A DNA stretch of 64,000 nt from Chloroflexota bacterium (lineage in GTDB: Bacteria; Chloroflexota; Anaerolineae; Anaerolineales; Villigracilaceae). The stretch spans positions 124,001 to 188,000 of the forward strand of contig JACRBI010000040.1 in the NCBI GenBank assembly GCA_016234495.1, given 5' to 3'. A model generated the notes under the pieces. That model saw only the letters and a list, made by a program, of their open reading frames with translations, did not search any database and was not told where the DNA came from. Below, piece by piece: positions 983-12,726 of this stretch (position 1 is its first letter; each line of letters opens with the position of its first letter). A program made the translations under genes and the position numbers.

Positions 983-1011
983 TTGACCTTCCGCGCTTTC
1001 GCCCGTACAAT
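983..1011 (+). promoter_or_regulatory. Sigma70-type promoter placed for a leaderless mRNA
   Basis: TTGACC (983-988), 17-bp spacer, TACAAT (1006-1011). The ATG at 1019 begins 7 nt after the -10 box, where transcription itself would be expected to start. An in-frame TTG at 983 would have to be transcribed from elsewhere, so this promoter supports the ATG at 1019 as the gene start. Confidence 0.65.
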
Positions 1012-1018
1012 ATGCGCC

Positions 1019-3403
1019 ATGCGCGATTGGTCTTTAAGCTCCGGCGACCCGCTCTACCTTTCTCTGGCGGCGGATGCCCGTCTGTGTAAGCCGGATTACG
1101 TCAACGACCATATCTGGGAGGTGGAACTGGGCGCGGCAGACCCGGAGCGCTCCGCTGTTTTGCTCAACACCACTTTCGGCCTGCGCGCGCGATCCATGCG
1201 CATTTTCCTGCGCTTCACAGAAAACAACACATCCGTCACAGACCCAAACACCTTCGCCGGCAAACCGTCACTGCGGCGGTATTACCCAAACTTCCTGACT
1301 CTCGATTTTGTTCCGCTCGAAGCCCTGAACGTCACGGCCGAATTCTGGGTTCCCGAATCCCACGCCGTCGCGGGGCGGGTCATGCTCACCAACAAAAGCA
1401 ACGCCATCCGCCAGATCAAACTGGAAGTCTGCGCCGCGCTTGCGCCGCTCGACGGTCAATCCATCATCCCGACTCAACAACAACTTGTAAATATTCTGGC
1501 AGGACAAACCGGCGGAATCGCGCCCGTCATCTTTATGACTGGCGGCCCAAAACACGGACCTGGCCCGCACACATCGCTCCTGCTGGACCTGGAGCTTGGT
1601 CCCGGCTCGACCAGGCAGATCACCTTTGCTGAAGCCGCGCTGGATACCGTCGCCGCCTCGTTTGACCTGGCGCGCCGCAGCGCCGCCCGCTCGTGGGAAG
1701 CGGAACGCGCCCGCATCGAAATGCTCGACGCCTCGCAGGTGCTCGACATCCGCACCGGCGACAATGACTGGGACGCCGCGCTCGCCTTCAGCCAACAGGC
1801 CGCGCACGGATTATTCTTCAGCGGCAGCGAGCATTTGCCCGGCCCGTCCTTTGTCAATGCGCGCCACGTGGATAACGGCTTTTCGCGCAAGGGCGACGGC
1901 ACAGATTACGCGCCCTCCTGGAACGGACAAACCCCGTTGGATGCATATTACATCTCCAGCATTTTGCACGGCGCGCCGCAGGTGACGAAGAATCTCATCC
2001 TCAATTTTCTCTCCACTCAAAATGAATATGGCGAAGTGGACAGCAAGCCCGGTCTCGCAGCCCAGCGCGGAAGGATCATCGCCGCGCCGCTGCTCGCCTC
2101 ACTCGCGTGGCAATATTTTCAAACCACCCAAGACGAAGCCTTTCTTGCCGAAGCATTTCCCAAATTAATTAAATTCTTCTGGTCGTGGTTTTCCTCCGCG
2201 CACGACCGCAACCGCGACGGCGCACCGGAATGGGATCACATTCTGCAAAGCGGTTTTGACGACAACCCGCTCTTCGATGTCTGGCATCCGTGGTCGCAGG
2301 GGCTGGATATTTCACTCGTTCACAGCCCTTCGCTGGAAGCCATGTTGTACCGCGAAGCAAATTCCATTGTGAAGATCGCGAAAAAACTTGGCAAGCCCAC
2401 AGAGGAAACCCTGCTTGTTAACTCGCAGGCTGAGACTTTAAAGTCAGCGCTCGCTGCGGGCTGGAATGCAGACCAAAGTTTTTATTCCTACCGTGACCGC
2501 GAAACAGGGCAGGTTTCAACCGGCAAAGTCATCGCAAAGAAAAAAGGCGATGGAAACATGAGACCCAAAGCGGAGTTTGAGTGTGGAGTCCGCCTGTTGG
2601 TGGAGATCCAGACCAAAAGTCCAGCCGCGAAGCGCCCCGAAGTGGAGATCAGTGAATACGTCACCAAATCTAAAGGCGAAGTCGAAACCATTTTTGGGCA
2701 TCAATTCCAATGGCGCAGCGGCGGGCTGGTGGCCACGACTCAAAAATTATTTTCACGCGTCGGCAAGATCAGCGTGACCGGCCTCGATGAAAAAGACAAA
2801 ATTATCGTGAAGCTGATCGACACTACCGGTGAAGACCTCACACTGGCATTGCCGTTGTGGGCGGGCGCTCTTGAAGCAGGGCAGGCGCGTGAGTTGATTC
2901 ACCGCAACCTGCTGATGGCAGACAGATTCGACCGCCCGTTTGGACTGCCGGCGCTGCCGCTTCCACCCGCGCCGGATGCTGATCCTGTCGCGATGAGCAT
3001 TTCCCTCCCGTGGAATCAACTGATCGGCGAAGGCCTGCTCGCGTACGGATTCCGCTCCGAAGCCACGCGCCTGACCGCGCATTTGATGAACGCGGTCATC
3101 CAAAACCTGAAACAGAACCGCGCTTTTTATCAGCGCTATCATGCTGAAAAAGGGACAGGCATCGGCGAACGAAATTCACTGCAGGGCTTCGCGCCGGTCG
3201 GCTTGTTCATGCAGGCGTTGGGCGTAACCATTCTTTCCGCCACAAAGGTAAAACTCGAAGGACGGAATTATTTCCCCTGGCCGGTGACAATTAAATACAA
3301 AGGCCTGACCATCGCACGCGGACTGGAGCAAACCGTTGTCACGTTCGTGAATGGTGAGAGTGCCATCGTAAAAGATGAGACATCCTGTATCGTTGAGATG
3401 TAA
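1019..3403 (+). CDS. GH63-like (alpha/alpha)6 glycoside hydrolase
   Basis: This 794-residue protein has an N-terminal beta-rich half (residues ~1-240) and an (alpha/alpha)6 catalytic part. Its acidic motif EWDHILQSGFDDNPLF (around residues 405-420) and a late GIGERNSLQG motif (around 718) match the general-acid and general-base regions of GH63-type glucosidases and glucosyl/mannosylglycerate hydrolases. An insertion of roughly 160 residues separates the two halves. It is followed by a terminator and then a glucosylglycerate-type gene cluster, so hydrolysis of that compatible solute or a related alpha-glucoside is likely. No signal peptide is seen, which implies a cytoplasmic enzyme. The exact substrate is inferred from neighbours only. 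Confidence 0.75.
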   Translation: MRDWSLSSGDPLYLSLAADARLCKPDYVNDHIWEVELGAADPERSAVLLNTTFGLRARSMRIFLRFTENNTSVTDPNTFAGKPSLRRYYPNFLTLDFVPLEALNVTAEFWVPESHAVAGRVMLTNKSNAIRQIKLEVCAALAPLDGQSIIPTQQQLVNILAGQTGGIAPVIFMTGGPKHGPGPHTSLLLDLELGPGSTRQITFAEAALDTVAASFDLARRSAARSWEAERARIEMLDASQVLDIRTGDNDWDAALAFSQQAAHGLFFSGSEHLPGPSFVNARHVDNGFSRKGDGTDYAPSWNGQTPLDAYYISSILHGAPQVTKNLILNFLSTQNEYGEVDSKPGLAAQRGRIIAAPLLASLAWQYFQTTQDEAFLAEAFPKLIKFFWSWFSSAHDRNRDGAPEWDHILQSGFDDNPLFDVWHPWSQGLDISLVHSPSLEAMLYREANSIVKIAKKLGKPTEETLLVNSQAETLKSALAAGWNADQSFYSYRDRETGQVSTGKVIAKKKGDGNMRPKAEFECGVRLLVEIQTKSPAAKRPEVEISEYVTKSKGEVETIFGHQFQWRSGGLVATTQKLFSRVGKISVTGLDEKDKIIVKLIDTTGEDLTLALPLWAGALEAGQARELIHRNLLMADRFDRPFGLPALPLPPAPDADPVAMSISLPWNQLIGEGLLAYGFRSEATRLTAHLMNAVIQNLKQNRAFYQRYHAEKGTGIGERNSLQGFAPVGLFMQALGVTILSATKVKLEGRNYFPWPVTIKYKGLTIARGLEQTVVTFVNGESAIVKDETSCIVEM

Positions 3404-3495: not shown

Positions 3496-3538
3496 AATTT
3501 ATGAAATTTTTGAGCGCAGTATTGACCACAAAAACGTG

Positions 3539-5224
3539 ATGACAAAAAAACTTCTCAACCATCTCACCTTTTTATACGGGGAGGAGAAAGCGCCGCAGTT
3601 GTATGAGCGCGCGCAAAAACTGGTGGATGGCTATCGCGCGCAAATTTTTATCAGGAACGGGGAATTGACCGAACACGACTCCATTCTCATCACCTACGGC
3701 GATCAAGTGCGGTCGCAAAATGAAAAGCCGCTGAAAACGCTAAATAAATTCTGCAAAAAATATTTATCAAACATCATCAGCGGAATTCACATTCTGCCTT
3801 TTTACCCGTGGACTTCGGACGACGGTTTTTCGGTTATTGATTATCGTACAGTAGATTCAAACCTGGGGGATTGGGACGATGTCTCGCCCATGCAAAACCA
3901 TTTTCGCTTGATGTTCGACGGCGTCATCAATCACATCTCGGCCCAAAGTGAATGGTTCAAAGGCTTTTTGCGGGATGATCCGCGTTATCGCGATTACTTT
4001 ATTAAAGTGGATGGTTCGCCTGATCTTTCGCAGGTGGTTCGTCCGCGGGCAGTGCCGCTGCTTACACCCTTTCAAACTCCTTTGGGCGAGAAAAAAGTGT
4101 GGACAACATTCAGTGAAGACCAGATCGATCTCAACTTCAAAAACCCCGAAATCCTGCTTGAAATCCTCGATGTTTTGCTCATGTACGCGGAGCGCGGCGC
4201 GACATTCCTCCGCCTCGATGCGATTGCCTACTTGTGGAAGGACATCGGCACGACCTGCATTCACCTGCCGCAGACACATCGCGTCATTCAATTCTTGCGC
4301 GCCGCGCTGATTGAGGCCGCGCCGCATGTTCATATCATCACTGAAACGAACGTTCCGCACGCGGACAATATCTCCTACTTCGGCGATGGCACCAACGAAG
4401 CACAACTCGTCTACAACTTTGCGCTCCCCCCGCTGACCTTGCACACCTTCCACACAGGAAATGTGCGCGTGCTCTCCAACTGGGCAAAGACATTGACCTT
4501 GCCCTCGGACAAAACAACCTTCTTCAATTTCCTCGCCTCGCATGATGGAATTGGACTAAACCCTGCTCGTGGAATTTTATCGGACGCAGAGATCGACTCG
4601 CTGGTGGACAAGACTCTCGAACACGGCGGCTTAATATCGCACAAGCACGATGCGGATGGTTCGCAAACTGCGTATGAAATGAATATCAATTATTTTGACG
4701 CACTCTCCAACCCAAACAGTGATGAGCCGTTGAGTTTGCAGGCAGATCGTTTCATCGCTTCGCAGGCGATCATGCTTTCACTTCTCGGAGTGCCGGGAAT
4801 CTATTTTCACAGTCTTTTTGGCTCGCGCGGCTGGATTGAAGGCGTGAAATTGACTGGCCGCAACCGCACGATCAACCGCGAGAAATGCAACTTTGATAAA
4901 TTGCAAAACGAACTTGCAGATGAAAACTCACTGCGCTCAAAAGTTTTTGTACGGTATTCTCAATTGTTGAAGGCAAGAGGGAATATCCCGGCATTCCATC
5001 CGCATGGCGAGCAAAAGATTTTGGATGTTCATCCGGCAGCATTTGCGGTGGAACGTATTTCGCCAGGTGGAGAATCTCGTGCGTTGTGTTTGCATAATGT
5101 CAGCGCGAAGGAAATCACGTTTGCCACTGGGCATGTGACAGCTATGGATATTTTTACAGATCGGCTTTTACAGGCTTCAACGGTCAAACTTGAACCTTAT
5201 CAAATCTTATGGATGAGACTATGA
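3539..5224 (+). CDS. GH13_18 phosphorylase, probable glucosylglycerate phosphorylase (sucrose phosphorylase family)
   Basis: This 561-residue enzyme probably splits an alpha-glucoside with phosphate to give glucose 1-phosphate. The GH13 residues are in place: nucleophile Asp227 in FLRLDAIAYLW, acid/base Glu269 in ITETNVPH, and transition-state Asp336 in ASHDGIG. The TETNVPH and EAQLVYNFALPPL segments resemble the branch holding glucosylglycerate and glucosylglycerol phosphorylases more than classic sucrose phosphorylase (family knowledge). A GpgS-type gene 2.6 kb downstream supports glucosylglycerate as the substrate. The start is ATG 3539; GTG 3536 is the alternative, and neither has a clear Shine-Dalgarno. 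The stop overlaps the next start by ATGA, which indicates coupling. Confidence 0.8.
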   Translation: MTKKLLNHLTFLYGEEKAPQLYERAQKLVDGYRAQIFIRNGELTEHDSILITYGDQVRSQNEKPLKTLNKFCKKYLSNIISGIHILPFYPWTSDDGFSVIDYRTVDSNLGDWDDVSPMQNHFRLMFDGVINHISAQSEWFKGFLRDDPRYRDYFIKVDGSPDLSQVVRPRAVPLLTPFQTPLGEKKVWTTFSEDQIDLNFKNPEILLEILDVLLMYAERGATFLRLDAIAYLWKDIGTTCIHLPQTHRVIQFLRAALIEAAPHVHIITETNVPHADNISYFGDGTNEAQLVYNFALPPLTLHTFHTGNVRVLSNWAKTLTLPSDKTTFFNFLASHDGIGLNPARGILSDAEIDSLVDKTLEHGGLISHKHDADGSQTAYEMNINYFDALSNPNSDEPLSLQADRFIASQAIMLSLLGVPGIYFHSLFGSRGWIEGVKLTGRNRTINREKCNFDKLQNELADENSLRSKVFVRYSQLLKARGNIPAFHPHGEQKILDVHPAAFAVERISPGGESRALCLHNVSAKEITFATGHVTAMDIFTDRLLQASTVKLEPYQILWMRL

Positions 5225-6555
5225 CACATCACATCGGTTTTATCTCCACCCGCTTGGCAGGAACAGACGGCGTTTCGCTCGAAACGCAAAAATGGGCAAC
5301 GGTGCTCGAGCGGCTCGGGCACAAGTGTTTCTATTTTGCCGGCGAATGTGATCGAAACAGCGACCAATCTCACGTCACGCCTGAGGCGTTTTATCGCCAT
5401 CCCGAAATAGATAAATTAAATCAGCAAGCCTATTCGGGCAGTTGGACGGTGACGAAGGAGGCGCGCAAGGCTCATCCTGAAATTGCCTCGCTGCACAAGG
5501 ATTATTTCTCCAAGTACATTCGTCCGCCGCAAATGACGCGCCGCGTGAATGAATTGAAGGAATATCTCAAAGAGCAGTTGTACGAGTTCGCGCATCGCTT
5601 TGATTTGGAAATTCTCGTCATCGAAAATGCGGTCACGATCCCGCTTAACCTGCCGCTTGGTATTGCGATCACGGAATTCATCGCCGAGACGGGGTTTCCC
5701 ACCATCGCTCATCATCATGATTTTCATTGGGAGCGTCAGCGTTTTCAAGTCAACTGTGTGGGAGATTATCTCGCCGCGGCTTTCCCGCCCAACCTGCCTT
5801 CGATTCGACACGTGGTCATCAATTCGATTCAAGCCCAGCAGATCGCTTCGCGTTGTGGATTGGCGGCTCGCGTGATCCCCAACGTGATGAATTTCGACGC
5901 CCCGCCTCCCGCCTCGGATTCCTACTCCGAAACTGTTCGGAAAGACTTTGGCATTGGCCACGCTGAATATTTTTTCCTGCAGCCCACGCGCGTCATTCAA
6001 CGCAAAGGGATAGAGCACGCTGTTGAACTTGTCCGCAGACTTGAACTGCCTGCAAAATTGGTCATCTCTCACGCTTCCGGTGACGAGGGCACAGGTTACG
6101 AACAACGCGTGCGCGAGTATGCCCGCCTGCTGGATGTGACCGTTCGTTTTGAATCTGATCAGGTGCAGGATGAGCGCGGCCTCACAAAGGACGGCAAAAA
6201 GATTTACACGCTTGGCGATGTGTATCCGCGCGCAGATTTGATTACCTATCCATCCGCCATTGAAGGGTTTGGAAATGCCTTTCTCGAAGCCGTGTATTAC
6301 CGCCGCCCGATTTTTGTAAACAATTATTCGATCTACGAAGTGGATATCAAGCCGAAAGGGTTTCGCGCAGTCTGGTTCGATGGCTTTATTGATGCAGAGA
6401 CGCTCCATGCGGTGCGCCGTGTTTTGCAGAACCCTGCGCTGGCAGAGGAATGGGCGGAGGAAAATTACCAGCTTGCAAAGCGCTATTTTTCATTCACGGT
6501 GCTGGAGCGCCGTTTGCAATCAATTCTTGCAGATTGCCTGGGGCAGCAGGTATGA
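5221..6555 (+). CDS. GT4 glycosyltransferase, MggA/GgS-like candidate
   Basis: This 444-residue GT-B enzyme has an N-terminal acceptor half and a C-terminal nucleotide-sugar half carrying the retaining GT4 signature around EGFGNAFLEA (E-x7-E, near residue 345). The start ATG at 5221 overlaps the upstream stop in ATGA; an in-frame ATG at 5209 is less likely. It sits between a glucosylglycerate-type phosphorylase and a GpgS fusion. It may therefore add a second sugar to glucosylglycerate, as MggA does in mannosylglucosylglycerate producers, or make the glucosylglycerate directly. That role is inferred from context only. Confidence 0.75.
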   Translation: MTHHIGFISTRLAGTDGVSLETQKWATVLERLGHKCFYFAGECDRNSDQSHVTPEAFYRHPEIDKLNQQAYSGSWTVTKEARKAHPEIASLHKDYFSKYIRPPQMTRRVNELKEYLKEQLYEFAHRFDLEILVIENAVTIPLNLPLGIAITEFIAETGFPTIAHHHDFHWERQRFQVNCVGDYLAAAFPPNLPSIRHVVINSIQAQQIASRCGLAARVIPNVMNFDAPPPASDSYSETVRKDFGIGHAEYFFLQPTRVIQRKGIEHAVELVRRLELPAKLVISHASGDEGTGYEQRVREYARLLDVTVRFESDQVQDERGLTKDGKKIYTLGDVYPRADLITYPSAIEGFGNAFLEAVYYRRPIFVNNYSIYEVDIKPKGFRAVWFDGFIDAETLHAVRRVLQNPALAEEWAEENYQLAKRYFSFTVLERRLQSILADCLGQQV

Positions 6556-7772
6556 ACATTGCCATCCTGCATTACTCCGTTCCGCCCATCGTTGGCGGTG
6601 TGGAAAGTGTCATCGCTCATCACGCAAAGTTGATGTCTGCGGACGGACATTCTGTGCGTCTGGTTGCTGCGCGCGGCGAATCGCTGAGTGGCAAAGTCCC
6701 GTTGACAATCATTCCCCTGGCAGATTCGCGCCACGCACGGGTTGCGGAAATGAAAGACCAATTGGATCGCGGCGAAGTGACGCAGGATTTTGAATCCCTG
6801 CGCGATGAACTCGCTGGACAATTACAGGCTGTTTTATCGGGCGTGGATGTGCTGATCGCGCACAATGTCTGTTCTCTGAACAAAAACCTGGCATTAACCG
6901 CCGCGCTGCATCAATTACATGTTGCGCGAACGCAGCGCGTTCCGCGCCTGATTCTCTGGCATCATGACCTGGCGTGGACAACCCCGCGCTATCGGCCCGA
7001 ACTGCACGACGGTCATCCCTGGGATTTGCTGAAAACTGCATGGCCTGAAGCAGTTCAGGTCACGGTATCTGAAGCGCGGCAGGATGAACTCTCCGATTTG
7101 ATGAAGATCAAAAAATCCAAAATTCATGTCATCCCCAACGGCGTGGATGTAGGCAGGTTTCTCAAACTGGAGGAACAGACGCTCGAATACATTCAAAAAT
7201 TAAATCTGTTGCAGGCGAGTCCTTTGTTGCTGCTTCCCGTCCGCATCACGCCGCGCAAGAACATTGAACTGGCATTGCAGGTTTTAGCCGCCTTGCGAAA
7301 CGATTTCCCATCCGCCCAAATGGTTGTGACCGGCCCTCTCGGGCCGCATAACTCTGCGAACCTGCAATACTTTAAAAAGTTAAATCTGATCCGTGATGAG
7401 CTTGGATTAAATTCTTCCGTTCATTTTCTCGCAGAATTGACAAATGAGTACATCCCCGACCCGGTCATTTCAGATTTCTACAAACTTGCAGATGCGCTGC
7501 TCCTTCCCAGTTTTGAAGAAGGATTCGGCATTCCCATTTTGGAGGCGGGGCTTGCAGGCATTCCCGTCTTTTGCTCTGATATTTCCCCGCTAAAAAAACT
7601 TGGGGTTGAATTCGCAAATTATTTTTCACCCGAAGCCGACCCAAATGTTGTGGCTAAAATGATGGCCGGCCACTTTACAAACGATAAACTCTTCGGTTTG
7701 CGCGCATCCGTTCGTGAACATTTCACCTGGGAACGCATCTATGCCGCAAGAATCGCGCCCCTGCTCAAATAA
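6552..7772 (+). CDS. GT4 family glycosyltransferase
   Basis: This 406-residue retaining GT-B transferase opens with a Rossmann-type strand and Gly-rich loop (MNIAILHYSVPPIVGGVE). It carries VIPNGVD mid-protein and the donor-binding EEGFGIPILEAG near residue 320. It starts on the ATGA overlapping the previous stop, so it is the third gene of a translationally coupled set. With no membrane segment it is probably cytoplasmic. It and the upstream GT4 differ clearly in sequence, so they are not a recent duplication. The acceptor is unknown; context points to a sugar-extended compatible solute. Confidence 0.75.
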   Translation: MNIAILHYSVPPIVGGVESVIAHHAKLMSADGHSVRLVAARGESLSGKVPLTIIPLADSRHARVAEMKDQLDRGEVTQDFESLRDELAGQLQAVLSGVDVLIAHNVCSLNKNLALTAALHQLHVARTQRVPRLILWHHDLAWTTPRYRPELHDGHPWDLLKTAWPEAVQVTVSEARQDELSDLMKIKKSKIHVIPNGVDVGRFLKLEEQTLEYIQKLNLLQASPLLLLPVRITPRKNIELALQVLAALRNDFPSAQMVVTGPLGPHNSANLQYFKKLNLIRDELGLNSSVHFLAELTNEYIPDPVISDFYKLADALLLPSFEEGFGIPILEAGLAGIPVFCSDISPLKKLGVEFANYFSPEADPNVVAKMMAGHFTNDKLFGLRASVREHFTWERIYAARIAPLLK

Positions 7773-7849: not shown

Positions 7850-7876
7850 TTGCGTTAAATATTAAAAGGAGCCAAA

Positions 7877-9685
7877 ATGTACCCAATTCCGCAAAACGCC
7901 CTTATTGCGAAAGTTCTTGTGCCTGTCCTGTATGGCTGTGAACAGAAGTCTGCCATCCATGCGGCGCACTCCATTGTGGGGGATGTAAATGTTTTTCTGA
8001 CAGGCTTTATTCATGTCCCCATAGACCAATCGCTCAGTACAGCAGCAGTAGATGCACGAAAATTAAGGCAGACCCTTAAGCAGCTTTACAAGATCAAACG
8101 CGGAGATAAATGGGCGCAGGTTTACGTCTCGCATAACCCCTGGAACGAGCTGGTCGAAATTGTAAAACGCGAAGACATCGATCTGCTCCTGCTCGAATGG
8201 CCCTGTCACTTTAACTCGTTGAATGTGTCGGTTGCTGAAGTTCTTTCACAGCCGCCGTGCAATATCGCCATTGTCAACCAACATATCGGAGTGAAGACCC
8301 GAAACGTATTGATCCCCATCCGCGGCGGACCGTACGCAGAGTTGAGCCTGCGCATTGCCCTGTCGATTCGCAACTCGAACAATGCGCAAATTTCATCCCT
8401 GCATCTTTTCCCGAATAATATCTCTAGCGAGCAGGATCTGGCCTTCAAGGGGATTGATCGTGTCTTGAAAAACCTGCCCGAAATCAGGCGCGAGGAAGTT
8501 GTCACGGATGATCCCGCCGCAGCCATTTTTGATGCCGCCCAAAAATATGATCTGCTGATCATGGGCGCATCTGCGCGGCCTATGAATGAAGTCGCTTCCA
8601 TTGGGATGGTGACCGAGAAGATCATGCGGGAGAGCCGCAATGGCGTGATCGTTGTAAAGACAAAACTGCCATACGAAGTCAACCCTGCCAGCGAAGAAGC
8701 GGGTGGAACCGCCATCTCCGTGCTTGTGGATAAGTGGTTCGCGGAAAACACATTTCATGCAGACGAGTTCAAAGATTTGAATTATTTGCTTTCCCTGAAA
8801 CAAAAACAAAACCTGACCATCAGCCTTGCGCTTCCCGCGCTCAACGAAGAGCAGACCGTTGGCAGGGTCATCCGAACGATCAAGAACGTCCTGATGAAGC
8901 GCGTCCCATTGTTGGACGAAATTGTTTTGATCGACTCGCAATCCGCAGACCGCACTCGCCAGATCGCTGAGAAGATCGGCGTGCCGGTTTACATCCATCA
9001 AAAAATATTGACGCAATATGGCGCGCGCAAAGGAAAAGGAGAGGCATTGTGGAAAAGTCTGTATTGCACTCGCGGAGATGTCATCATTTGGGTTGATACC
9101 GATATTGTGAATATTCATCCGCGCTTTATCTTCGGATTGATCGGCCCGTTTCTTCTCCGTCCTGAAATTGATTTCGTCAAAGGGTTTTACCGCCGCCCTT
9201 TGAAAGTCGGCAACAAACTGCAGGCCGCCAGCGGAGGGCGCGTCACCGAGTTGACCGCGCGCCCGCTGCTCAACTTGTTTTATCCCGAACTCTCCGGCAT
9301 TGTGCAGCCCCTCTCCGGTGAATATGGCGGCAGGCGCAAAGCCCTGGAGCAGCTGCCCTTCTTTTCAGGTTACGGAGTCGAGATCGGCCTGCTGATTGAC
9401 ATGCTCGAAAAGTTTGGTTTAACCTCGATCGCCCAGGTGGACTTGCAGGAGCGCATCCATCACAACCAGCCGCTGGAGGCACTAAGTAAAATGTCCTTTG
9501 CCATCATTCAGGCGGTCATCCGAAAACTTGAGATCAAATACGGGCAGAGTATTTTGGAAAATATCAACAAGACCATGAAGATGATCCGCTACGAACAGGA
9601 GCGCTTCTTCCTTGACATTGACGAGATCGCCGAACGCGAACGCCCGCCCATGATCGAGATTCCGGAATATCAGAATAGGATATAG
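7877..9685 (+). CDS. Tandem universal stress protein fused to GT81 glucosyl-3-phosphoglycerate synthase
   Basis: This 602-residue protein has two Usp-like alpha/beta domains (residues ~8-140 and ~145-275), the second with a MGAS-type nucleotide-loop remnant. A complete GT81 domain follows (~285-590). GpgS hallmarks are visible: the HADEF lead-in, LPALNEEQTVG, the metal-binding VDTD (Asp407, Asp409), a GxxKGF-type region and the acceptor motif HHNQPL. GpgS joins UDP-glucose to 3-phosphoglycerate, the committed step of glucosylglycerate synthesis. AGGAG lies just upstream of ATG 7877. Standalone GpgS is ~300-400 residues, so the Usp half is extra; it may sense ATP or stress (inference). No GpgP phosphatase gene is seen nearby. 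Confidence 0.85.
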   Translation: MYPIPQNALIAKVLVPVLYGCEQKSAIHAAHSIVGDVNVFLTGFIHVPIDQSLSTAAVDARKLRQTLKQLYKIKRGDKWAQVYVSHNPWNELVEIVKREDIDLLLLEWPCHFNSLNVSVAEVLSQPPCNIAIVNQHIGVKTRNVLIPIRGGPYAELSLRIALSIRNSNNAQISSLHLFPNNISSEQDLAFKGIDRVLKNLPEIRREEVVTDDPAAAIFDAAQKYDLLIMGASARPMNEVASIGMVTEKIMRESRNGVIVVKTKLPYEVNPASEEAGGTAISVLVDKWFAENTFHADEFKDLNYLLSLKQKQNLTISLALPALNEEQTVGRVIRTIKNVLMKRVPLLDEIVLIDSQSADRTRQIAEKIGVPVYIHQKILTQYGARKGKGEALWKSLYCTRGDVIIWVDTDIVNIHPRFIFGLIGPFLLRPEIDFVKGFYRRPLKVGNKLQAASGGRVTELTARPLLNLFYPELSGIVQPLSGEYGGRRKALEQLPFFSGYGVEIGLLIDMLEKFGLTSIAQVDLQERIHHNQPLEALSKMSFAIIQAVIRKLEIKYGQSILENINKTMKMIRYEQERFFLDIDEIAERERPPMIEIPEYQNRI

Positions 9686-9819: not shown

Positions 9820-10914
9820 ATGATAAGCACCATCCTCCTGTTCGTTGCAGGCCTTGTTGTTTTGATCCTGGGCGCGGATCTTCTTGTGCGCGGCGCTTCA
9901 CGTTTGGCTGCTGCGTTTGGCATTTCACCACTTGTCATCGGCTTGACCATAGTTGCAATTGGGACCGCTTCACCTGAGATCGCTGTCTCTGTTCAGGCAG
10001 CCATAAATGGGCAGGGTGACTTGATGCTAGGCAATGTGCTTGGCTCCAATATCTTCAACATTCTTTTTATCCTTGGGATTACATCCGTTGTTGTGCCGAT
10101 CGTGATCGCAGAACAATTAATCCGCAAGGATGCGCCGACCCTGTTGGGCGTATCGCTGCTTACATTTGTACTTGCATTTGATGGCGGCCTCGACGCCGTG
10201 GATGGCGTAATCCTCGCCTTGCTTCTGGCTGTCTACGTCGTCTTTGCGTTGAAACAGAGCCGCTCCGAAAGCAAAAAAGTACAAAAGGAATATGCGGAGG
10301 AATACGCACAGAAGGAACCGAGAACCATGAGGAACTCCATCAGCAACACCGTTTTCATTTTGATCGGGCTGGGTCTGCTTGTGCTTGGCTCGAACTGGCT
10401 GGTGGATTCCGCTGTTCAAATTGCAAAAGCGCTGGGGGTCAGCGAATTGGTGATCGGTCTGACTATCGTGGCGGTGAGCACATCCCTGCCTGAAGTCGCC
10501 ACCTCGGTCATTGCCGCACTCAAAGGAGAAAGTGACATCGCAGTCGGCAACGCGGTAGGAAGCAACATCTTCAACCTGCTTGGTGTGTTGGGAGTCGGAG
10601 CGATTGTTTCTCCCAATGGCATTGTGGTTGCAGAGCATGTGTTGCAGTTTGACATGCCTGTCATGGTCTTTGTGGCGCTCGTGACCCTGCCGATCTTTTA
10701 TATTGACAGTCGAATTTCGCGCATGGAAGGCTGGCTGTTGCTGGCATATTACATCACTTATATGGTCTTTATCATCCTGCGCGCTGCAGATAGTTCAGCG
10801 CTGAATTCAATGAAGTTGTTCGTTGCATTCTTTGTGCCGCTGACTTTTATCGCACTGATCGTGATTGCAGTGCGATCGGCGCACGCCAAAAGGCAGAATT
10901 TAAATGCCACATGA
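9820..10914 (+). CDS. Na+/Ca2+ exchanger family (CaCA, YrbG-like) antiporter
   Basis: This 364-residue membrane protein of about 10-11 helices has the two inverted alpha repeats of the CaCA superfamily. Repeat 1 has AIGTASPEIAVS and GNVLGSNIFN; repeat 2 has VSTSLPEVATS and GNAVGSNIFNLLG. A charged cytoplasmic loop (~residues 145-170, SRSESKKVQKEYAEEYAQKE) divides them. It would exchange Ca2+ for Na+ or H+ across the inner membrane. GGAG precedes ATG 9820, and an extended -10 lies upstream. Its place between osmolyte genes and a NhaD-type carrier suggests a role in salt stress. Confidence 0.85.
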   Translation: MISTILLFVAGLVVLILGADLLVRGASRLAAAFGISPLVIGLTIVAIGTASPEIAVSVQAAINGQGDLMLGNVLGSNIFNILFILGITSVVVPIVIAEQLIRKDAPTLLGVSLLTFVLAFDGGLDAVDGVILALLLAVYVVFALKQSRSESKKVQKEYAEEYAQKEPRTMRNSISNTVFILIGLGLLVLGSNWLVDSAVQIAKALGVSELVIGLTIVAVSTSLPEVATSVIAALKGESDIAVGNAVGSNIFNLLGVLGVGAIVSPNGIVVAEHVLQFDMPVMVFVALVTLPIFYIDSRISRMEGWLLLAYYITYMVFIILRAADSSALNSMKLFVAFFVPLTFIALIVIAVRSAHAKRQNLNAT

Positions 10915-10921
10915 AATTTTG

Positions 10922-10930
10922 TGGTATAAA
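10922..10930 (+). promoter_or_regulatory. Extended -10 element TGGTATAAA
   Basis: TGTGGTATAAAAATC lies 49 bp before the CBS gene start at 10979 and 7 bp after the exchanger stop. It is the third copy of the TGGTATAAAA motif in this island and argues against an in-frame ATG at 10904 as the start. Confidence 0.5.
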
Positions 10931-10978
10931 AATCTTGAAGTAACGATTGGATTATTTTCAAAACCACTTGGAGACCAT

Positions 10979-11440
10979 ATGAATGTAACATCCTGTATGA
11001 AACGGGACGTGGTTTCCGTTCTCGCGAAAACGACCATACGCGAAGCGGCAAATATCTTTGTCAAAAAGCATATCGGCCTGTTGCCTGTTGTTGATGACAC
11101 TGGCAGGCCAATCGGCGTGATTGGGATGCGCGACCTGCTGACTCTTGAACTGCCTGATTTCGTCACTTTCCTGGCAGATGTGGATTTCGTCCACGATTTT
11201 GGCGCAGTGGAAAATACCCACCCCTCGGCAAGAAACCTGAACAAGACCGTCAAGACATTGATGAAACCTGCCATCACTGTTGAGGAGGAATGCGGTCTTC
11301 TGCGTGCTTATGCCTTGATGTTGCAGCACAACCTGCATGACATGCCTGTAATTTCAAATGACGGAAAATTGATGGGCATTACCTCGCGCGTGGATATTGG
11401 CGTTGCCATCCTTTCCACCTGGCCCAAGACAGATAAATGA
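10979..11440 (+). CDS. CBS-domain pair protein
   Basis: This 153-residue cytoplasmic protein consists of two CBS motifs (residues ~4-60 and ~95-150), with MNVTSCMKRDVVSV opening the first and LMKPAITV the second. Such Bateman modules bind adenine nucleotides and gate transporters or enzymes. The start ATG 10979 has GGAG 6 bp upstream; an in-frame ATG at 10904 is upstream of the promoter-like TGGTATAAA. Its stop overlaps the following antiporter start in ATGA, so it probably regulates that carrier. The ligand is not predictable; AMP, ATP or c-di-AMP are all possible. Confidence 0.85.
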   Translation: MNVTSCMKRDVVSVLAKTTIREAANIFVKKHIGLLPVVDDTGRPIGVIGMRDLLTLELPDFVTFLADVDFVHDFGAVENTHPSARNLNKTVKTLMKPAITVEEECGLLRAYALMLQHNLHDMPVISNDGKLMGITSRVDIGVAILSTWPKTDK

Positions 11441-12726
11441 CAATGGCGCCCGCAATCATTTCCGCCATCATCTTCTTCGGCAGCCTGATCCTGATCTTAA
11501 CAGAAAAGCTCAATCGTTCCATCACGGCCATTGCAGGGGCGGCATTGATGGTGGCATTCGGGAAAATATTTGGTTTTTACTCCGAGGAAGCCGCTCTTGA
11601 AGCGGTTGATGCCAACACTCTGGGGCTTCTGCTTGGTATGATGATTCTGGTCGCCATGCTGGAGCCGACCGGCTTCTTTCAATATCTGGCAGTTCTTGCA
11701 GCACGCTCTTCAAAAGGGAAGCCCGTGCGCTTGTTCATTTTGCTGGGCATCATTACCACGATCCTTTCGATGTTTTTAGACAACGTCACCACCGTTGTCT
11801 TAATTGCACCTGTTACCCTCCTCATTTGTGAAATCATGGGCATCAGCGCACTCCCTTTTCTTGTCTCTGAAGCCCTGCTTTCAAACACCGGCGGCGTAGC
11901 TACCCTGGTCGGCGATCCACCCAACGTGTTGATCGGCTCTGCGGCCGGCCTGTCGTTCAACGACTTTTTGATCTACTCGATGCCAATTGTATTGTTCTCG
12001 TGGGCAGGTGCATTATTTTTATTGCGCTATCTCTTTCGCAAGGAATTATCCAAACGGCCCCGCAGTGTTAAAGCCATTATGCGGCTTAACCCTGTGGAGA
12101 CTCTAAATGAACCCCTGGTTGCGCGTCGCATACTTATTGTACTGGGCGGAGCTGTTTTACTCTTCTTTGTCCACCATGCGCTGCATATCAGCCCTTCGTT
12201 GGTTGCATTGAGTGCTGCTGCCATTGCGCTGGTTTGGGTGAAGCCTGATATTCACGATATTCTCAAACGCATTGAATGGAGTGTGCTCATCTTTTTCGGC
12301 GCGCTCTTCGTGATGGTTGGCGGATTGGAACATGCCGGGGTTATGGAGGCAATTGTCGGACTGCTGGAACGGGCTTCCGTTGTTCCCCCGGTCCTGTTTG
12401 GAGTTGGGTTGATCTGGATCGTGGCCGCGCTTTCCGCAGTTGTGGATAATGTCCCAATTACGATAGCTTTAATCCCTGTCATTAAAGGGTTGGGCGAAAC
12501 AGGCATGGATATTGGACCATTGTGGTGGGCGCTGGCTTTTGGGGCCGGCTTTGGCGGGAGCGGTACGATCATTGGCTCAACTGCCAATATCATTGTGACC
12601 ACACTTTCGGAAAAAACACGCACACCGATCACGGCAAAACTCTGGAATAAGCGCGGTCTCCCGGTTATGCTGGTCACCTGCGCGATCGCAAGCATATTGT
12701 ATGTTATCGTGTTTCAATGGATGTAG
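11437..12726 (+). CDS. ArsB/NhaD-family ion antiporter
   Basis: This 429-residue polytopic protein of about 11-12 helices belongs to the ion-transporter superfamily that holds NhaD Na+/H+ antiporters, ArsB and the OCA2 P protein. Family hallmarks include FLDNVTTVVLIAPVT, TGGVATLVGDPPNVLIGSAAG and a second-half VVDNVPITIALIP with GFGGSGTIIGSTANI. It is translationally coupled to the CBS protein (ATGA overlap). An in-frame ATG at 11443 is an alternative start. No arsenic genes are nearby, while ion and osmolyte genes are, so Na+/H+ exchange is the better guess. Confidence 0.8.
   Translation: MTMAPAIISAIIFFGSLILILTEKLNRSITAIAGAALMVAFGKIFGFYSEEAALEAVDANTLGLLLGMMILVAMLEPTGFFQYLAVLAARSSKGKPVRLFILLGIITTILSMFLDNVTTVVLIAPVTLLICEIMGISALPFLVSEALLSNTGGVATLVGDPPNVLIGSAAGLSFNDFLIYSMPIVLFSWAGALFLLRYLFRKELSKRPRSVKAIMRLNPVETLNEPLVARRILIVLGGAVLLFFVHHALHISPSLVALSAAAIALVWVKPDIHDILKRIEWSVLIFFGALFVMVGGLEHAGVMEAIVGLLERASVVPPVLFGVGLIWIVAALSAVVDNVPITIALIPVIKGLGETGMDIGPLWWALAFGAGFGGSGTIIGSTANIIVTTLSEKTRTPITAKLWNKRGLPVMLVTCAIASILYVIVFQWM

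Follow-up and report, generated by a model that had tools for sequence, protein, structure and literature searches.

A gene in a Chloroflexota genome encodes, on the combined reading of profiles, alignments and structure models, a glucosyl-3-phosphoglycerate synthase (GpgS), the predicted enzyme of the committed step of glucosylglycerate synthesis, with an N-terminal module of two universal stress protein (Usp) domains in tandem. We lean towards the reading that this module, which is related to the tails of transporters, regulates and adjusts compatible-solute synthesis. The gene lies in a stretch of 64,000 nucleotides, here called the window, on which all positions without a locus label are given.

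Domains of the fusion gene

The fusion gene is a single open frame of 602 codons at 7877–9685 on the + strand, as are all window features below, with its ATG at 7877 and its stop at 9683–9685. The likely ribosome-binding site, AGGAG at 7867–7871, lies five bases ahead of the ATG. Models and alignment place Usp domain 1 at about residues 11–135 (7907–8281), and Pfam Usp and models place Usp domain 2 at about residues 140–263 (8294–8665). A linker of residues 264–285 (8666–8731; models and alignment) leads to the GT81 GpgS domain and its C-terminal segment, residues 286–602 (8732–9682; NCBIfam model NF010496 and fold). Both VDTD and HHNQPL are present in the translation, with D-T-D aligned at residues 407–409 (9095–9103) and HHNQPL at residues 528–533 (9458–9475). 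The first-pass annotation had described one frame with two Usp-like domains, a complete GT81 domain with these motifs intact, and a good ribosome site, all of which is borne out. It had also drawn the Usp span at residues 8–275; the two domains are there, and the Usp part ends near residue 263.

Model NF010496 scores 376.8 bits on residues 284–596 (cut-off 262), placing the enzyme half in the GpgS family. Pfam Usp scores 46.3 bits on residues 142–261 (cut-off 24), and Usp1, taken alone as the first ~140 residues, reaches 15.1 bits, under the same cut-off. An AlphaFold2 model of the window protein from 62 sequences (mean pLDDT 85.1) contains two consecutive Usp folds, and so does a model of the N-terminal part only from 35 sequences (mean pLDDT 85.2). 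In these models, both halves of the N-terminal part have strands and helices in the order typical of Usp, and they match tandem Usps in fold comparison. A second copy of the full fusion protein is absent from the window's own genome.

The window protein has all ten of the GT81 active-site positions checked (DxD, Lys, Arg/Thr, Glu, His, Asn), and 127 of the 130 aligned homologues keep the full set. The other three, which were retained in all counts, are L135, L136 and L148, the last lacking some catalytic residues. L135, a second copy in genome G288, and L136, in G191, align as fusions, but most catalytic residues are missing from their GT81 half; these paralogues are possible inactive partners or regulators. 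On the choice between UDP-glucose and GDP-mannose as donor, the closest solved relative by sequence is an MpgS, and the phosphorylase next to the gene speaks for glucosylglycerate.

The alignment has 130 rows, comprising the window protein and 129 of the 150 loci with a frame. These 129 exclude L001 (the window's own entry), L095, whose frame runs on into a long C-terminal extension, identical copies, and the open-ended frames L023, L065, L140, L146 and L147. Alignment A2 holds 53 of 78 preselected sequences, and A1 and A3 were drawn from one limited set of loci.

Occurrence of the fusion

Homologues were searched for in 400 Chloroflexota genomes, own included, at E 1e-20. The window protein was matched in 118 of them, and Usp2-region sequence stands in the same frame in all 118, as checked by eye. 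The GpgS model scores above its cut-off in 116 of the 400 genomes, all of which fall within the 118 when the two tables are compared by eye. Thus homologues lacking the N-terminal part, which had been named as a finding that would undo the fusion, were sought and none appeared among the 116 GpgS-positive genomes, each having Usp in the same frame. Counting weaker matches to the GpgS model, 119 genomes are reached, one of them through a short glycosyltransferase (G344) without Usp, far under the cut-off. Some matches begin only at residue 102–119; the first Usp is nevertheless present in all three that were fetched (L143, L144 and L151).

The same annotation had considered a sequencing error joining two genes near position 8690. 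A total of 129 other, non-identical homologues carry Usp and GT81 within one frame, and in the two halves of the Usp module, at the junction and in the enzyme alike, substitutions relative to five relatives are mostly at third codon positions. Because of these two observations a frame error at this junction is excluded, and with the 118 same-frame genomes a sequencing or assembly artefact is ruled out; we give such an artefact practically no chance. In Chloroflexota, then, GpgS normally occurs fused, and the window gene is no oddity.

GpgS had been said to be normally standalone. This stands for what was met outside Chloroflexota and fails within the phylum, where fusion is the rule. Three actinobacterial records match the GT81 part only, one being annotated as a 909-base gene. 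Among solved proteins, the seven GpgS/MpgS sequences of this type align with the window protein only from residue 286 on. The spread beyond Chloroflexota was followed by tblastn against a plasmid collection, in which 32 records matched: 3 are the GT81-only GpgS, 20 match the Usp part only, and 9 are distant glycosyltransferases. The 20 comprise permeases, a chloride channel, stress proteins, two unannotated records and one formate/nitrite transporter. None of the 32 spans Usp and GT81 together.

Membrane parts ahead of the Usp module were considered for unusually long frames and rejected, as no membrane-like stretch precedes the chosen start in 16 such loci picked by eye. We found no description of a Usp–GpgS fusion in the literature covered, with subscription journals and domain databases outside its scope; the architecture may already figure in an automatic domain listing.

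Putative ligand pocket of the Usp module

The ATP-binding Usp motif, G-2X-G-9X-G-(S/T), is absent from both Usp halves of the window protein, where Usp1 reads EWPCHFNSLN and Usp2 has a degenerate GASA-9x-GM. The exact motif occurs in 3 of 130 fusions and a relaxed form in 6. In the 15 transporter tails described below, the exact motif is found in Usp1 of 7 (8 if the spacing may be 8–10) and in Usp2 of none. In the homologue alignment, two pocket loops of Usp2 stand out, the R149-G-G-P loop (8321–8332) and a second loop from G230 to G243 (8564–8605). R149 is kept in 129 of 130 fusions, G150 in 130, G151 in 123, G230 in 130 and G243 in 127. Of the 15 transporter tails, 12 have A at the R149 position and one has R. 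R64 of Usp1 is found in 130/130 fusions and 11/15 tails. With the ATP motif missing and the pocket residues near-invariant, ligand sensing is plausible and plain ATP sensing less so. As for the nucleotide- or stress-sensing role first proposed for this domain, its regulatory side fits the transporter-tail kinship and plain ATP sensing does not carry over, the motif being absent.

From these conserved residues we infer that Usp2 may hold an anionic ligand. The ligand would be small and probably anionic, and the Usp module would bind it in the Usp2 cleft formed by the R-G-G loop, G230 and G243; candidates are, for example, a nucleotide held without the triphosphate grip, or a phosphorylated metabolite. 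Such binding would set the activity or the assembly of the GT81 enzyme, and osmolyte synthesis would thereby follow a signal of the kind acting on solute transporters.

Alternatively, Usp2 could sense ATP or the energy state in the classical way and gate GpgS according to the ATP level. The Usp-like lobe of KCC1 is described as binding ATP/ADP though the bacterial motif is missing from its sequence, two lysines, in the first strand and a loop, holding the ATP phosphate, and KCC2 arginines could act likewise (PMC8280820). The tails and the few fusions that keep the exact motif in Usp1 point the same way. We nevertheless find this sensor improbable, given what both window halves have in place of the motif.

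For KdpD, it is described that Usp binds c-di-AMP via a retained glycine with the rest of the ATP motif absent, and that (A/G/C)XSXSX2N(Y/F) is the KdpD-type c-di-AMP motif (PMC8214093). The first loops of the window protein read PVLYGCEQKS and PIRGGPYAEL and do not match it, so that c-di-AMP binding through the KdpD motif was rejected. The cyclase family is present in 20 of 21 genomes, own included; as 11 of 14 control genomes have it too, it says little on c-di-AMP.

Usp domains often pair, which would suit a tandem that is structural, i.e., one that serves to dimerise or stabilise the enzyme or to dock it, perhaps onto the GT4 neighbours or a transporter, and that senses nothing. GpgS of M. 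tuberculosis is described as a dimer and as acting in that form (PMC2581804), again in keeping with such a role, as are the loss of the ATP motif from both halves and the faster evolution of the Usp half, in which the mean frequency of the top residue is 0.46–0.49 (0.49 in Usp2) versus 0.78 in the enzyme. A scaffold, however, would need none of R149, G150, G230 and G243, near-invariant residues that sit where other Usps have ligand-holding loops. A purely structural tandem is the main rival, in our view less likely than a module that regulates compatible-solute synthesis.

Kinship with transporter tails

The tblastn search against plasmids gave the first pointer, to haloarchaeal amino-acid permeases and a Nostoc chloride channel (ClC). 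A profile made from 130 GpgS Usp halves was scored against transporter tails and free Usps; the tails had been fetched since earlier searches matched them and are not a random permease sample. Whole tails are matched as one unit, with 173.7 bits for a Haladaptatus permease, 138.7 bits for L182, a permease from Chloroflexota, and 130.7 bits for the Nostoc ClC. Twelve more permease-type tails score 120.2–174.7 bits. Of the tails scored, L199 was typed as a permease by eye and L190 is unannotated. One-piece alignments were thus obtained with 14 permease tails (120–175 bits) and one ClC tail, as befits a shared transporter-tail module. A free tandem Usp of the window's own genome (L175) scores 72.2 bits, split into two pieces, and a Chloroflexota permease with a tandem Usp (L184) is matched weakly, at 52.7 bits.

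Other arrangements were seen along the way. In the own genome, a protein of the Na/H-exchanger type carries Usp sequence at its C-terminus (L174:853–2859, +); this part is distant, at 29.3 bits to the profile. At L200:2642–5902 (+), Pfam finds a permease part, Usp, Usp and DUF389 in this order, and the second gene of locus L057 has a tandem Usp followed by a hydrophobic part that is DUF389-like by eye.

In fold, VIA-align ranks tails of cation-chloride cotransporters on top: KCC3 (7ain) gives Z 18.7 at 3.4 Å over 236 residues, and C. elegans KCC-1 (6vwa) gives Z 18.7 at 3.5 Å over 247 residues. Whole-tail cotransporter rows span Z 14.4–18.7 and free tandem Usps span Z 14.3–16.8, a lead of only ~2 Z units for the former. 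Foldseek orders free tandem Usps first, e.g., Rv2623 (E 1.5e-10), with the first cotransporter at rank 18 (2.6e-8). The sequence profile against the PDB is likewise best for Rv2623 (2.6e-20), no cotransporter being better than E 0.5 (3g40). From the profile, Foldseek and VIA-align results, the permease and ClC kinship rests on sequence and the cotransporter likeness on fold only. The Usp tandem is therefore related, by sequence comparison, to tails of amino-acid permeases and ClC, and in fold its model is similar both to the tails of cation-chloride cotransporters and to free tandem Usps.

Free modules beside trehalose enzymes

A search with the Usp alignment matched 76 of 121 genomes, returning free copies of the GpgS-module type as well as permease tails. 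In one Chloroflexota family, f31 (L204–L213), nine genomes have a free module, with copies 65–100% alike that retain the R-G-G loop. In all nine the free module lies directly upstream of a gene of the GT20 trehalose-phosphate-synthase type, and in none of the nine (70–96% complete) does GpgS score over the cut-off. Pfam GT20 matches the L204 member of this type at 352.8 bits, and the OtsA model does so at 304 bits, under its cut-off of 564.85; among PDB entries the protein is closest to a trehalose-phosphate synthase. The stop of the module and the start of GT20 overlap there (GTGA).

A free tandem Usp in one further genome (L214:240–2382, −) overlaps the start of a TreT-like gene, which scores 203 bits to 6zj4 and 178.2 bits to NF041139 (cut-off 775). 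A sensor histidine kinase gene lies upstream of this tandem Usp. In L196 and L197 the free module is followed by another GT4. No osmolyte enzyme adjoins the free module in L202, L203 and L215. The neighbours in L202 and L203 include a protein that bears a weak resemblance to methanethiol oxidase (106 bits, cut-off 650) and, by eye, ABC-transporter-like genes.

In a tree of modules, 102 GpgS-fused modules, 13 free modules of f31 and two contig-end pieces form one clade (support 0.932). The two pieces, leaves L147 and L162 labelled SOLO, are probably parts of GpgS fusions. The 13 free modules group together (0.981) and are placed with five GpgS modules of f31 (0.982). GpgS modules had been thinned from 142 to 103 for this tree, and the leaf L057 is the second gene of its locus, leaving 102. 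The clades fit a history in which the module was fused once and later released to trehalose synthases, with the root set on the Nostoc ClC tail by our choice and one deep node at a support of 0.45.

Gene neighbourhood and predicted product

Directly upstream of the fusion lies a GT4 glycosyltransferase gene (6552–7772), identified by profile and found in this position in 67 of 78 loci in the neighbour table; all neighbour counts refer to these 78 loci of at least 12.5 kb. It is preceded by a second GT4 (5209–6555) that resembles mannosylglucosylglycerate synthase, at 214 bits to NF041101 under a cut-off of 640, and for which sequence comparison with the PDB at E 0.001 gave no relative. This second type occurs in 35 of 78 loci after 6 of 41 matches below 100 bits were dropped, these six being probably the other GT4. 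Further upstream are a GH13 phosphorylase (3536–5224) and a glycoside hydrolase related to mannosylglycerate hydrolase (983–3403; PF22422, 63.6 bits, cut-off 27). A GH13 phosphorylase is near the fusion in 40 of 78 loci, in 29 of these 40 upstream on the same strand.

The window phosphorylase has TETN at residue 269 and the loop-A Glu (..AYE..); among homologues covering the positions, TETN is kept in 54 of 54 and YE in 53 of 53. These features, (T/S)ETN and the loop-A Glu, are described as marks of glucosylglycerate phosphorylase (PMC7178133), and glucosylglycerate phosphorylases are described in GH13_18 (PMC11009771). The neighbouring phosphorylase with TETN thus argues for glucosylglycerate, which, as predicted from the gene cluster, is most likely the pathway product, perhaps extended with mannose. 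For the second-step phosphatase, the best that TIGR02463 reached in the own genome was 11.6 bits; this genome has four genes of the histidine-phosphatase family, none of them assigned to the step. Directly downstream of the fusion (9820–12726, +) are Na/Ca-exchanger, CBS-domain and ArsB/NhaD-like transporter genes; across loci, CBS and transporter occur in 7 of 78 and the exchanger in 6 of 78.

Discussion

The reading that the module regulates compatible-solute synthesis draws on the same-frame Usp in 118/118 genomes joined to GT81 sites intact in 127/130, on the one-unit matches to permease and ClC tails, the fold of KCC tails and the conserved Usp2 pocket, and on the separate module beside GT20 (9/9) and a TreT-like gene together with the glucosylglycerate cluster. 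Against it count the ATP motif missing in both halves, the lower conservation of the Usp half than of the enzyme, the fold lead of ~2 Z with Foldseek and the PDB profile favouring Rv2623, the weak matches of L184 and L174, and the free modules of L202, L203 and L215 without an osmolyte enzyme.

The role of Usp domains is largely open. In the present case such a module is linked to enzymes with easily measured activity (GpgS and the trehalose-phosphate synthase type), either within one protein or through adjacent and partly overlapping genes, so that its signal and effect become directly testable. A soluble metabolic enzyme is also linked to permease and ClC tails by sequence and to cotransporter tails by fold. 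This kinship suggests that osmolyte synthesis and solute transport may be under shared control by a related signal.

More tentatively, the module might be a general regulator of compatible solutes in Chloroflexota. A tandem Usp related to transporter tails would have been joined once to GpgS, its ATP site turning into an R-G-G anion-binding loop, and would later have been released in one family as a separate, translationally coupled subunit to trehalose synthases of the GT20 and the unrelated TreT-like GT4 types. If so, one kind of sensor would couple osmolyte transport and synthesis.

Several known systems can be compared. GpgS of mycobacteria and MpgS of Rubrobacter xylanophilus have the catalytic domain, active-site residues and fold in common with the window protein; the GT81 half matches R. 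xylanophilus MpgS (3o3p) at Z 36.5 and 2.3 Å over 305 residues, and mycobacterial GpgS at Z 33.4–35.2. The known enzymes are free and have 326–387 residues, whereas the window enzyme is preceded by the tandem Usp. The bifunctional MpgS–MpgP of Dehalococcoides (mgsD) is also a fusion in a similar pathway and of the same phylum, but joins a synthase to a phosphatase instead of a Usp module.

The Usp of KdpD, like that of the fusion, sits on another domain and lacks the ATP motif (Z 9.9 in fold comparison), and the first glycine of the motif, which is described as kept in KdpD (PMC8214093), corresponds to G230. KdpD, however, has a single Usp on a histidine kinase, and its c-di-AMP motif is not seen in the fusion. 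The free tandem Usps Rv2623, A. fulgidus 3loq and TTHA0350 share the two Usp folds (Z 14.3–16.8), with no enzyme attached. The regulatory domains of KCC, NKCC and MaCCC (3g40) contain two Usp-like folds in a similar arrangement, with Z 18.7 over 236–247 residues, but belong to membrane transporters, are ~10–12% identical to the fusion and give no significant sequence match (3g40, E 0.5). The C-terminal tandem Usp of permeases and ClC is the same two-domain module in the same order as in the fusion; there it is the tail of a membrane protein, with A at the R149 position in 12/15 and the exact Usp1 ATP motif in 7/15.
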